Shown: piece after piece, positions 54,046-58,243 of the stretch | Layout: every line of letters begins with the position of its first letter | Position numbering within the stretch: the stretch's first letter is position 1 | DNA from: Haladaptatus sp. R4 | Lineage (GTDB): Archaea; Halobacteriota; Halobacteria; Halobacteriales; Haladaptataceae | Assembly: GCF_001625445.1 (NCBI RefSeq) | Contig: NZ_LWHG01000032.1 | Coordinates: 1-64,000 of the forward strand | Length of the DNA stretch: 64,000 nucleotides | Direction of reading: 5' to 3' | The notes under the pieces: model-generated | What the model saw: the letters and a program-made list of their open reading frames with translations, nothing else | Database searches by the model: none | What the model was told of the DNA's origin: nothing | Made by a program: the position numbers and the translations under genes

Positions 54046-55642
54046 CTACCCCTGGCCGATGAGTCGGTCCTCGTCCTCCCAGAACTCCTGCCGGAGTTGG
54101 TACTTCTGGACTTTGCCGGTCGCAGTTTCCGGCAGGTCGTCGTCCACGATGATCTTGCGCGGAATCTTGTAGCCCGCCATCCGCTCGCGGCAGAAGTCCT
54201 CCACGTCCGCATCGGACAGTTCGACGCCGGGTTTCGGGACGACGACGGCCGTCACGAGTTCGCCCCACTCGTCGCTCGGCGTGGGAATGACCGCCGCCTT
54301 GGCGATGTCGGGATGGTCGTACAACACGTCCTCGACTTCGATGGACGAGACGTTCTCGCCGCCCGAGATGATGATGTCCTTCTTGCGGTCCTGAATCGAG
54401 ATCATCCCGTCCTCGTCGATGGTCGCGAGGTCGCCCGTGTGGAAGTAGCCCGGTAGTCGGTCGTTGAACGCCTCGTCGGTCGCCTCCGGTTTGTTCAGGT
54501 AGCGGTCCATCACCTGATTGCCGCGGACGACGACCTCGCCCATCGTCTCTCCATCCGGGGGGACGTCGCTGCCGTCGTCGTGAACGACGCGAACGTCGGT
54601 GCAGATGACCTCGCTCCCCTGTTTGACCTTCAGGGAGCGTCCGCGTTCGGCGAGGAGCGCGGCGAGTTCGACGTGGTGATGATGGGTGCGGTCTCGGTCA
54701 ACCCGTAAATATGGATGATGCGCCACCCGATGTCGTCCTCGACGGTTTCGATGGTCGCCGTCGCGGGAGCGCTTCCGGCCGTGGCGATGCGCAGTTCGCG
54801 GTCGCCCGTCGTCCCCACGTCGGGGTTGTTCTCGTTGAACGCGATGACGCGGTTGAGCACCGTCGGCGCGCCGCACATGAACGACACGTCGTAGTTTCGA
54901 ATCTTTTCGAGCGTGCGCTCCGGGGTGAACTTCCGGAGACAGACGTGCGTAGCGCCGGTTCCGGTGATGGCGTAGGTGTGGCCCCACCCGTTGCAGTGGA
55001 ACATCGGGAGCGTCCAGAGGTAGGTGTCGTCGTCCCGAATCTCCATGTGCTGGTTGAGCACGATGGCGTGCCAGTGTTCGGTGCGGTGGGTTCGAACGAC
55101 GCCCTTCGGGTCGCCCGTGGTTCCGGACGTGTAGTTGATGCTCGCGTCGTCGTCCTCCGAGATATCCGCCCGCTCCGGCGCGTCGGCCGACGCTCGTCCA
55201 CGAGGGTCATGTAGTCCTGCCAGTCGCCGTCGATTCTGTCCGCTTCGTAGCCGATGAAAAACTCGGCCGGGACCGAATCCCGAACCGCTTCGACCTTTTC
55301 GGCGAAGTCGTAATCCGCGATGACGACCGACGCCTCGCAGTCGTTGAGGATGTACTCGTAGTTAGCGGGCACGAGTCGGTAGTTCATCGGGACGTACACC
55401 GCGCCCAGATGGTTGGTCGCGTACAACGCTTCGAGGAAGTAGTGGGTGTTCGACGCCAGCATCGCCACGCGGTCGCCCTGTTCGACCCCGAGATCCGCCA
55501 GAACGTTCGCGAATCGGTCGACCCGCTCGCTGAATTCTTCGTAGGTGTACTCCGTACCGTCGTCCGCGATGACGCCGACCACGTCATCGTAGCAGTCAAC
55601 GGCGCGGTCGAGGAAATCCAACGTCGTCATTTCCTTCTTCAT
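54046..55642 (-). pseudogene. Acyl-CoA synthetase, AMP-binding family, frameshifted twice
   Basis: About 532 residues when repaired. Motifs: INYTSGTTGDPKGVVRTHR (ATP P-loop), IIHIYGLTETAPI, FHTGDLATIDEDGM (ATP/ribose Asp) and RKKDIIISGGENVSSIEVEDV and the Lys in ATGKVQKYQLR. These define an adenylating fatty-acid/short-chain acyl-CoA ligase. One base is missing near 55194 (between VDER and SADAPERADI) and one near 54670 (SNSPR-LLAERGRS). Start ATG at 55642, with an alternative at 55630. It lies convergent with the TetR gene. Chain-length specificity is not evident. Confidence 0.88.
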
Positions 55643-56077: not shown

Positions 56078-56170
56078 TATATCCAGAATATACTACTTCA
56101 AGCTGAGAACGAACGGAGTACTCCGTGCCGTCGTCCGCGATGACGCCGAACGAAAATCGAACCCTTTTTG

Positions 56171-56188
56171 TTTTAGGCCACCCTAAAA
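56171..56188. promoter_or_regulatory. Iron-box-like palindrome TTTTAGG-CCAC-CCTAAAA
   Basis: A perfect 7-4-7 palindrome, 7 bases before the ATG of a 54-residue protein. Its centre, TTAGG-N4-CCTAA, matches the TTAGG/CCTAA operator of DtxR-family metalloregulators (Idr/SirR in haloarchaea). Two sites with the same geometry lie within 1.1 kb. In such a position binding would repress directly. Confidence 0.7.
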
Positions 56189-56195
56189 ATCTCCG

Positions 56196-56360
56196 ATGGC
56201 TGTCAACTCACGGGCCGTTGACGGAACGACCACCCCCTCCCGATCGACGACTCCGGATATCGATCTCTGCGAAACACGGCCCGAGCGGTTCGTTTTCATC
56301 GAGGACGGAAACACGGATGGCTGGATCGCAACGGATACTGTCGTCTCGTCGTTGCGGTAA
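56196..56360 (+). CDS. Small conserved haloarchaeal protein, DUF7331-like
   Basis: 54 residues; the end RFVFIEDGNTDGWIATDTVVSS resembles a family of very short haloarchaeal proteins, which I recall as DUF7331; its function is unknown. The first 25 residues are Ser/Thr-rich and poorly conserved in composition. The ATG is 8 bases after an iron-box palindrome, so expression should depend on iron. It is convergent with dpsA. A gene of this size is easily missed. Confidence 0.55.
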   Translation: MAVNSRAVDGTTTPSRSTTPDIDLCETRPERFVFIEDGNTDGWIATDTVVSSLR

Positions 56361-56406
56361 TACTCGACAATTCTTCGAAAACGAAACGAATAGAAGAGCG
56401 ACGGAA

Positions 56407-56952
56407 TCAGTGCGTCGCGGATTCGAGGACGAGCGTGTCGTCTTCGAGGTAGTGGGCGATGGTGTGTGCGTACTCCTCTAGCTCCACCAGTTGTTCCCGA
56501 AGCATTTCTTCGGTCGCGTAGTCGCCGAGACCGTTGGCGAGCTCGATGTGGTCGCGGTAGCTCTCGATGATGTCACCGTACATTCCGAGGTCGTGGCGGA
56601 ACGAGGTTCGGATGTCGTACACGTCCTCGTCCTCGGGTTCGACCGTCGCGGCCGCCGAGAGCGCCGCCATGCTGGCGTGCGGGACGCCACCGATCGCCTG
56701 GACGCGCTCCGCGACCGCATCCGCGGCCTCCTCGACTTCCTCGTACGCTTCCTGAAGGAAGAGGTGGATGTCGTGGTGTTCGGCCCCTTCGACGTTCCAG
56801 TGGTGCTTGTGTAGCTGATGGTAGAGCACGTACGCGTCCGCGAGGTCCGTGTTCAACGCGTCGATGATCTGTTCTGCCTTCGCCTCTTCGAGGCGAAGCG
56901 GGTTCTCCTCGACCGTACCGGCCTTCTGCCGGACTTCCTCTTGAACACTCAT
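56407..56952 (-). CDS. dpsA: DpsA, ferritin-like iron-storage and DNA-protection protein
   Basis: 181 residues from MSVQEEVRQKAG, close to the length of the Halobacterium protein. The ferroxidase and helix motifs are LYHQLHKHHWNVEGAEHHDIHLFLQEAYEEVEEAAD, with HWNVEGAEFHD-type ligands, followed by VQAIGGVPHAS and DLGMYGDIIESYRDHIEL. DpsA forms dodecamers that oxidise and store iron. The start at 56952 is better than one 42 bases upstream, since AAAGATATATG at about 56980 is the TATA element. An iron-box-like site lies just upstream of it at 57007-57024, which implies iron-dependent control. Confidence 0.93.
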   Translation of the reverse strand: MSVQEEVRQKAGTVEENPLRLEEAKAEQIIDALNTDLADAYVLYHQLHKHHWNVEGAEHHDIHLFLQEAYEEVEEAADAVAERVQAIGGVPHASMAALSAAATVEPEDEDVYDIRTSFRHDLGMYGDIIESYRDHIELANGLGDYATEEMLREQLVELEEYAHTIAHYLEDDTLVLESATH

Positions 56953-57006
56953 TGCAACTACTACTCCGTTGGGGAGCCACATATATCTTTTCAAAGGAAA
57001 ACAATT

Positions 57007-57024
57007 TTTTTGGATGCCCTAAAA
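57007..57024. promoter_or_regulatory. Imperfect iron box TTTTTGG-ATGC-CCTAAAA upstream of dpsA
   Basis: Same 7-4-7 layout as the other two, with one mismatch in the left arm. It lies upstream of the dpsA TATA element, about 55-72 bases before the ATG. Sites placed upstream of the basal promoter often serve activation; so iron could raise dpsA while repressing genes with sites over or after the promoter. That contrast is inference. Confidence 0.55.
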
Positions 57025-57050
57025 TTATTTGGACGCTGTCGGCGTCGATG

Positions 57051-57140
57051 CCCCCGTTTTCGAGGGGGTCACAACCACCGTTTTCGACGGTTTCCAGGTC
57101 TCTGACGGTGGTAAACCGATCAAGATGACGAAAACGGTGG
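57051..57140. promoter_or_regulatory. Three copies of CGAAAACGG(T/G)GG forming alternative stems
   Basis: The 12-base motif lies inverted at 57051-57062 and 57075-57086 and direct at 57129-57140. The second and third copies form a perfect 12-bp stem. Inside it CGGTTT (57088-57093) can pair with AAACCG (57113-57118). Alternatively ACCACCGT (57074-57081) pairs perfectly with ACGGTGGT (57105-57112). The copies could be binding sites or an RNA switch; both lie between dpsA and the next gene. Confidence 0.4.
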
Positions 57141-57208
57141 GGTGGTGAAATCGTCCGAATCGTGTCGAGATACGCACCATTTATGCATCGAACAAAACAC
57201 TTTTAGGT

Positions 57209-57226
57209 TTTTAGGCTAGCCTAAAA
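57209..57226. promoter_or_regulatory. Iron-box palindrome TTTTAGG-CTAG-CCTAAAA
   Basis: An 18-base perfect palindrome 2 bases before an ATG at 57229, with an extra left half-site TTTTAGG at 57201-57207. The core TTAGGCTAGCCTAA agrees well with DtxR/IdeR-type operators. It lies about 110 bases upstream of the larger protein gene at 57336 and presumably controls it. Confidence 0.75.
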
Positions 57227-57228
57227 CC

Positions 57229-57342
57229 ATGGAACAGGGCAACGATGAAACGGTGAACACGCGTAGCACTTCCGCCTCACACCGCCGGAGAACCCCCACG
57301 AACCCCGATAGCGCGGGAACGCGACGGACACACGCATGGTAG
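57229..57342 (+). CDS. Possible 37-aa leader peptide
   Basis: The frame from the ATG directly after the iron box encodes MEQGNDETVNTRSTSAS then an Arg/Pro/Thr-rich tail and ends with TAG inside ATGGTAG, overlapping the ATG at 57336. This overlap suggests translational coupling. The sequence is basic and low in complexity, unlike most haloarchaeal proteins, and no family is recognised, so it may be only leader RNA. Confidence 0.25.
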   Translation: MEQGNDETVNTRSTSASHRRRTPTNPDSAGTRRTHAW

Positions 57343-58243
57343 GACACACGCTCCACGACATTCGCCGAAGTGTCGAATCGCTCGAAACGGACGACGGTGC
57401 ATATCACATCATCTGCGCCCGAACGGGAACCAGTCCGGTTCCCATCGCGGGACGACGGTTCGACAGTCGACACACCGCACGGGCGGCACTCCGCTTCGCC
57501 GAACAGTATCGAGCAGCGCTTCGTCGGTACGACCCACAGCTACCGTACCACGACCTCATCGTCTGCGAGGCACCGGAAACGTACACCTCGTCGGAGAGAC
57601 GGCCGGAGACACGACAGCGCTGGCGCGACGGAAGGACGAATCGACTGCGGACGGTTCGGTTACCGACCGACAGCCGCTCATCGATTTCTGTCACGACGTT
57701 ACCGGCGCGCTCTTCGAGACGCTCGCGGACGAGGGATACGAGCGCGTAGAGCGTGCGGTGATGGACGTGTATCTGGACGCCGCGGAGTCGGTTGCGGACC
57801 GGGACGAGTTCTGTCTCGTGCTGCTCGAAAGCATGGTCGTCGAGTTGACCGACCAGTTGTCCGCGGACGAACAACACCACGTCCTCGAAGCCGCGTCGAG
57901 ACGAATGCCGCCGGTCGAAGACGACGGGAGGACGATAGAAACCGCCCTTCAGCGTCTGGTTTCGGTGTCCATCGCGGCCGACTATCACCTCACTCCGCTG
58001 GACGACACGTCGTCATCCCGCGGATGGCTCGTTACGCTCTCCGAATACGCGCTCGACGGTGACGAACGCTACCTTCCGACGCTTCCGCTCGCCATCGAAC
58101 TCAACCGAATCCTTCCCGATCCGGTGTCGATAGAGTGGGCCCGGGCGGTCGATACCCACGATTGGGAGCTACGATTGTCGACGCGCGACCCGACGAAATC
58201 CACCGACACCGGCCTCCTTCGAGCGGCGATCAGGGATACCTGA
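57336..58243 (+). pseudogene. Conserved haloarchaeal protein, DUF7551/DUF7552-like, frameshifted
   Basis: About 302 residues when repaired. An N-terminal domain (about 1-85) has GHTLHDIRRSVESLETDDGAYHIICARTGTSPVPIAGRRF and RYDPQLPYHDLIVCEAPE. The C-terminal domain has LIDFCHDVTGALFETLADEGYERVERAVMDVYLDAAE and ELNRILPDPVSIEWARAVD. Both resemble a widespread haloarchaeal family of unknown function. One base is missing near 57597, between YTSS and ETAGDTTALAR. The iron box upstream suggests a link to iron homeostasis. It is convergent with a universal stress protein gene, 16 bases away. Confidence 0.7.

Follow-up and report, generated by a model that had tools for sequence, protein, structure and literature searches.

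The three iron boxes around dpsA in the 64-kb stretch of Haladaptatus DNA analysed here (the window) are best explained, with a probability of about 75 %, by iron-dependent regulation in which a DtxR-type protein would repress a small gene convergent with dpsA and a DUF7552–DUF7551 gene and would activate dpsA itself, an explanation drawn from comparative sequence analysis. Within the haloarchaeal iron regulon, each box would act as a DtxR/IdeR-type operator for a single dimer, bound when Fe(II) is plentiful by an Fe-loaded DtxR-family protein, most likely of the Idr type. At the small gene and at DUF7552–DUF7551, binding between the TATA element and the start codon would block initiation, so that both would be made in iron shortage only. 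At dpsA, binding just upstream of the BRE/TATA would help initiation, so that the iron store would be made when iron is plentiful. The opposite box positions would thus have dpsA and its convergent neighbour switched oppositely by the same signal. Repression of two genes and activation of dpsA had been proposed in a preliminary description of the region and are both predicted by the geometry; we infer binding, the identity of the binder, the direction of the effect (from position only) and the function of the small protein. Among IdeR targets, repressed genes carry boxes over the promoter or start, whereas activated ferritin genes carry them upstream (PMC10317159).

Iron boxes in the window and the genome

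The motif TTTTAGG-N4-CCTAAAA (18 bp, 7-4-7 geometry) was found exactly at the coordinates given in the preliminary description: perfectly at 56171..56188 (+, box 1) and 57209..57226 (+, box 3), and with one mismatch at 57007..57024 (−, box 2), where the dpsA strand reads TTTTAGGGCATCCAAAAA. These were the only matches in the 64 kb when up to three mismatches were allowed. Box 1 lies at −25 to −8 of the small gene, in the gap between TATA and ATG, and ends 7 nt 5′ of the ATG of the 54-residue ORF; box 3 lies 2 nt 5′ of an ATG at 57229, before the leader of the DUF7552–DUF7551 gene. Both are repressor positions. Box 2, at −72 to −55 from the dpsA ATG and upstream of its TATA element, is placed as an activator site would be. 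All three placements agree with those first described.

In the whole Haladaptatus genome, 30 sites were found at two or fewer mismatches (10 of them perfect), compared with seven for the reversed motif, and many formed tandem pairs 35–37 bp apart. This spacing was seen at uptake promoters (loci L003–L006, L010, L013 and L015), and a spacing of 26 bp at many small-gene promoters. Genes directly behind boxes encoded four siderophore-type ABC binding proteins of the Peripla_BP_2 family (periplasmic-binding-protein family 2), a family 5 (oligopeptide-type) solute-binding protein, a class-III aminotransferase, a DUF7260 protein followed by a DtxR-type protein, and a second DUF7552 protein. Crystallographic and binding studies of IdeR led to TTAGGNNNNCCTAA being proposed as the minimal IdeR/DtxR site, 14 bp in length (PMC8464063); this operator core was exact in boxes 1 and 3 and had one mismatch in box 2. 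This core, together with a regulon rich in siderophore-uptake genes, bears out the description of the boxes as DtxR/IdeR-type; the window boxes are therefore ordinary members of an iron regulon.

Four clear DtxR-family proteins (strong PF01325 matches) are encoded in the genome. One of their genes sits behind tandem boxes and the DUF7260 gene (G000:C21:1027895-1027948, L003), and the regulator may thereby control itself. Of the earlier proposal of a single metalloregulator, the DtxR-type boxes stand; control by one regulator is less secure, given four such proteins and a distinct sub-motif at dpsA.

The dpsA promoter and its variant box

The dpsA gene (56407..56952, −) encodes a Dps-like ferritin (NCBIfam NF041388, 287.8 bits against a cut-off of 170) whose best PDB match is Halobacterium DpsA (1moj). 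Judged by named relatives of this gene, the window falls within Haladaptatus or beside it. Its BRE (AA, −37/−36) and TATA (ATATAT) elements, at 56980..56989 (−), follow a pattern conserved in dpsA promoters: 80 non-redundant examples had a conserved A at −37 and a TTTAAG-like element at −33 to −28. The dpsA box is therefore upstream of both elements, the usual site for archaeal activators. It was found at a fixed −73 to −65, upstream of the BRE/TATA, in 46 of 90 dpsA loci, and within 150 bp upstream of dpsA in 47 of the 90 (shuffle mean 0.81, maximum 4); among 80 named dpsA loci, a box lay within 150 bp of dpsA in 60. That box 2 belongs to the divergent gene was rejected, as the box keeps its distance from dpsA irrespective of the gene next to it. 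The remaining 44 of 90 loci, including most of family f13, had no box at three or fewer mismatches, so not every dpsA would be activated in this way; the small-gene box stays in loci that lack the dpsA box.

Across the order, dpsA boxes formed an asymmetric sub-motif of their own, TTTTAGGNNNN(C/A)C(G/A)AAAA, in which the distal half remains TTTTAGG and the half nearer the TATA reads CGAAAA or CCAAAAA. Position 14 was G or A rather than T: T occurred in 4 % of dpsA boxes compared with 100 % of small-gene boxes, both sets having been selected at three or fewer mismatches. The mismatch in the dpsA box of the window is of this sub-motif kind and is not random decay. The identical 7-4-7 geometry first reported holds for all three boxes, but with this sub-motif at dpsA they are not wholly equivalent.

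The sub-motif also bears on which protein reads the box. IdeR binding was lost when T3 was changed to G in every repeat, and the dpsA site has the same change in one half, so that it may be bound more weakly or be read by another paralogue. That a SirR-/TroR-like DtxR paralogue, or an oxidative-stress regulator recognising a related site, reads it, leaving dpsA and the small gene without a single controller, is a minority possibility, to which the asymmetric sub-motif and the four DtxR-type proteins lend some weight. Against it, the distal half-site TTTTAGG is common to both kinds of box, the DtxR gene syntenic with dpsA is of the Idr type, and the IdeR targets of Actinobacteria include both ferritin and uptake genes (PMC10317159). 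A DtxR-type gene lay within 3 kb in 42 of the 80 named dpsA loci. In 41 of these it was of the Idr type, closest to one paralogue of the present genome, that behind the DUF7260 gene, and in many cases it immediately preceded the small gene.

Somewhat less probable again is that the dpsA box serves to repress dpsA, or to lift repression of a chromatin-like kind, instead of recruiting the transcription machinery. IdeR does induce bfrB mostly by displacing Lsr2 (PMC10317159), but the fixed distance to the BRE/TATA in 46 loci suggests contact with the basal machinery, and the fall of DpsA in iron deficiency in Halobacterium (PMC3600143) is the opposite of what Fe-dependent repression would give. 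Partial matches can arise in AT-rich promoters, but the origin of the boxes as chance or low-complexity palindromes has next to no probability and was ruled out by dinucleotide shuffles of the window (mean 0.32 matches, three never reached; chance expectation at the genome-wide site density, 0.006 sites per 1056 bp) and by the reversed-motif controls, with offsets fixed across the order and the content of the regulon pointing the same way.

Genes behind boxes 1 and 3

Iron-dependent repression by a DtxR-type protein is the reading preferred for both of these genes. The small gene (56196..56360, +), convergent with dpsA, encodes a 54-residue member of a conserved unnamed family and, judged by comparison with its relatives, is a real conserved gene, although public records call the protein hypothetical or omit it. 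Its TATA-like element, CTTTTTG at −32 to −26 (56164..56170, +), is T-rich in orthologous promoters: among 34 non-redundant examples, 82–94 % had T at −30 to −28, the T-rich TATA abutted the box and the box ended about 8 nt 5′ of the ATG. Because the box fills the space of the initiation complex, a bound DtxR protein should repress. A box was found upstream of the small gene in 70 of 74 orthologue rows, compared with 7 of 74 when the motif was reversed; 44 rows had it between −23 and −26 relative to the ATG, usually at −25, and 20 had one at −49 to −54. Among the 80 named dpsA loci, 56 had the small gene, each with a box before it. Just upstream of the small gene in the window, a 35-bp stretch (56115–56149) is 94 % identical to 55544–55578, at the start of an AMP-binding gene. 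The preliminary description had named orthologous promoters as the place where its proposal might fail; when these were searched, boxes were present at the small gene, at dpsA and at DUF7552–DUF7551.

The family profile matched in 95 of 117 genomes sampled evenly across the order. In 70 of the 90 dpsA loci the small gene was present, convergent with dpsA in 68 of the 70 and within 500 bp of the dpsA stop in 63. Both genes occurred in 94 of the 117 genomes and neither in 14, with nine discordant (eight with dpsA only, one with the small gene only; two genomes without a match were assigned by elimination), giving a Fisher P of ~1e-11, uncorrected for relatedness. The eight dpsA-only genomes all belong to the window's own family, and their dpsA is at most 59 % identical to that of the window. 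The DUF7260–DtxR gene order recurs on plasmids: a Halostagnicola plasmid carries DUF7260, a DtxR gene, a hypothetical gene, the small gene and then convergent dpsA, and a Haladaptatus plasmid carries DUF7552–DUF7551, DUF7260, a hypothetical gene, a DtxR gene, the small gene and then a convergent iron ABC transporter.

The small protein has the conserved core PGxxVFxExxNTDGWIxxD. It resembles DUF7331 (PF24018) in length and in its C-terminal half, but direct assignment was rejected, as the window protein scored 14.2 bits and the best of four relatives 22.3 against a cut-off of 27; the genes for canonical DUF7331 proteins in this genome had no box nearby. Structure prediction gave a β-hairpin only (mean pLDDT 71.8, pTM 0.36) for the small protein and a poor model (59.3) for DUF7552–DUF7551, and profile searches of the PDB returned no useful match for either. 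Bfd is likewise a small protein encoded beside an iron store, bacterioferritin, and made in iron shortage, as is predicted for the small gene. However, Bfd-like iron-release ferredoxins have four conserved cysteines for a [2Fe-2S] cluster, a pattern missing from the small family; no cysteine was invariant among 34 aligned members, so the family is without an iron–sulfur site, and its partner is a Dps-like ferritin. A tentative proposal, with the odds somewhat against it, is that DpsA has in the small protein a partner dedicated to low iron, acting for instance in iron release or in blocking loading and made exactly when dpsA is off through two mirror-image uses of one box, and that the pair forms a near order-wide haloarchaeal module.

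The gene behind box 3, at first described as DUF7551-like, is instead a DUF7552–DUF7551 fusion that is frameshifted in this assembly. The DUF7552 part (57336..57749, +; PF24422, E 6e-35) and the DUF7551 part in another frame (57602..58243, +; PF24420, E 8e-59) were joined by tblastn with an intact Haladaptatus protein; the split falls between about 57575 and 57602, whereas most relatives have one reading frame of about 300–350 codons. An AMP-binding (acyl-CoA synthetase-like) gene at 54046–55642 (−) is also split, over three frames, and assembly indels are therefore as likely as decay for the DUF7552–DUF7551 frameshift; the two split genes suggest either indel errors or local gene decay. A box lay within 300 bp upstream of DUF7552–DUF7551 in 35 of 54 rows, a few genomes being counted twice, compared with three for the control; within the window's family, genus g2 has it directly against the ATG. 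In the window itself, box 3 is followed by a short leaderless frame of 38 codons (57229..57345, +), which overlaps the DUF7552 start at 57336. It was rejected as a conserved protein, its sequence being unconserved, and is probably an upstream ORF retained for its position: at the same place, other Haladaptatus carry frames of unrelated sequence, 23, 24 and 42 residues long, two of which overlap the next start as ATGGTAG, and translational coupling with DUF7552 is possible. Elsewhere in the genome, a short DUF7552 protein without DUF7551 has tandem boxes at −39 and −18 (G000:C2:85731-85748, L011), which are conserved in four other genomes.

Relation to known iron regulons

The IdeR/DtxR regulon of Actinobacteria has the same core operator, TTAGGNNNNCCTAA, and the same layout, with uptake-gene boxes at the promoter or start and ferritin-type boxes upstream (PMC8464063, PMC10317159). 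The haloarchaeal sites differ in being mostly 18-bp single-dimer sites rather than 19-bp double sites, in their tandem copies (spaced by 35–37 bp before uptake genes and by 26 bp before many of the small genes), in their TATA/BRE promoters and in the dpsA sub-motif with one altered half. The Idr1/Idr2/SirR/TroR network and the FerR regulon signal (Martinez-Pastor 2017, 2024; Leyn and Rodionov 2015), as far as they are presented in the papers citing them (PMC6978704, PMC11349517), concern the same organism group and regulator family, with the signal before siderophore ABC genes.

The DtxR regulator family and regulon are already known, as are the box and the response of DpsA to iron. The preliminary description had regarded the iron link as new; iron dependence of dpsA was already known in Halobacterium, whilst links of the small gene and DUF7552–DUF7551 to iron were unreported in the literature searched. 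That literature, whose scope did not extend to the main haloarchaeal regulon papers, mentions none of these DUFs by name. As far as it shows, three things are new: the conserved, boxed small partner of dpsA, the membership of DUF7552–DUF7551 and DUF7260 in the iron regulon, and the sub-motif of the dpsA boxes.

For families that have had no described function, namely the small protein, DUF7552–DUF7551 and DUF7260, these results provide an order-wide link to iron at the sequence level. How IdeR activates genes, and its role at single-dimer sites, are open questions (PMC10317159). The dpsA locus offers a natural pair of operators, one in an activator and one in a repressor position, for probing DtxR-type activation, and as archaeal TBP/TFB systems work in vitro, both this activation and the role of single-dimer sites are directly testable. 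The arrangement of dpsA and the small gene likewise presents a testable iron-linked protein pair.
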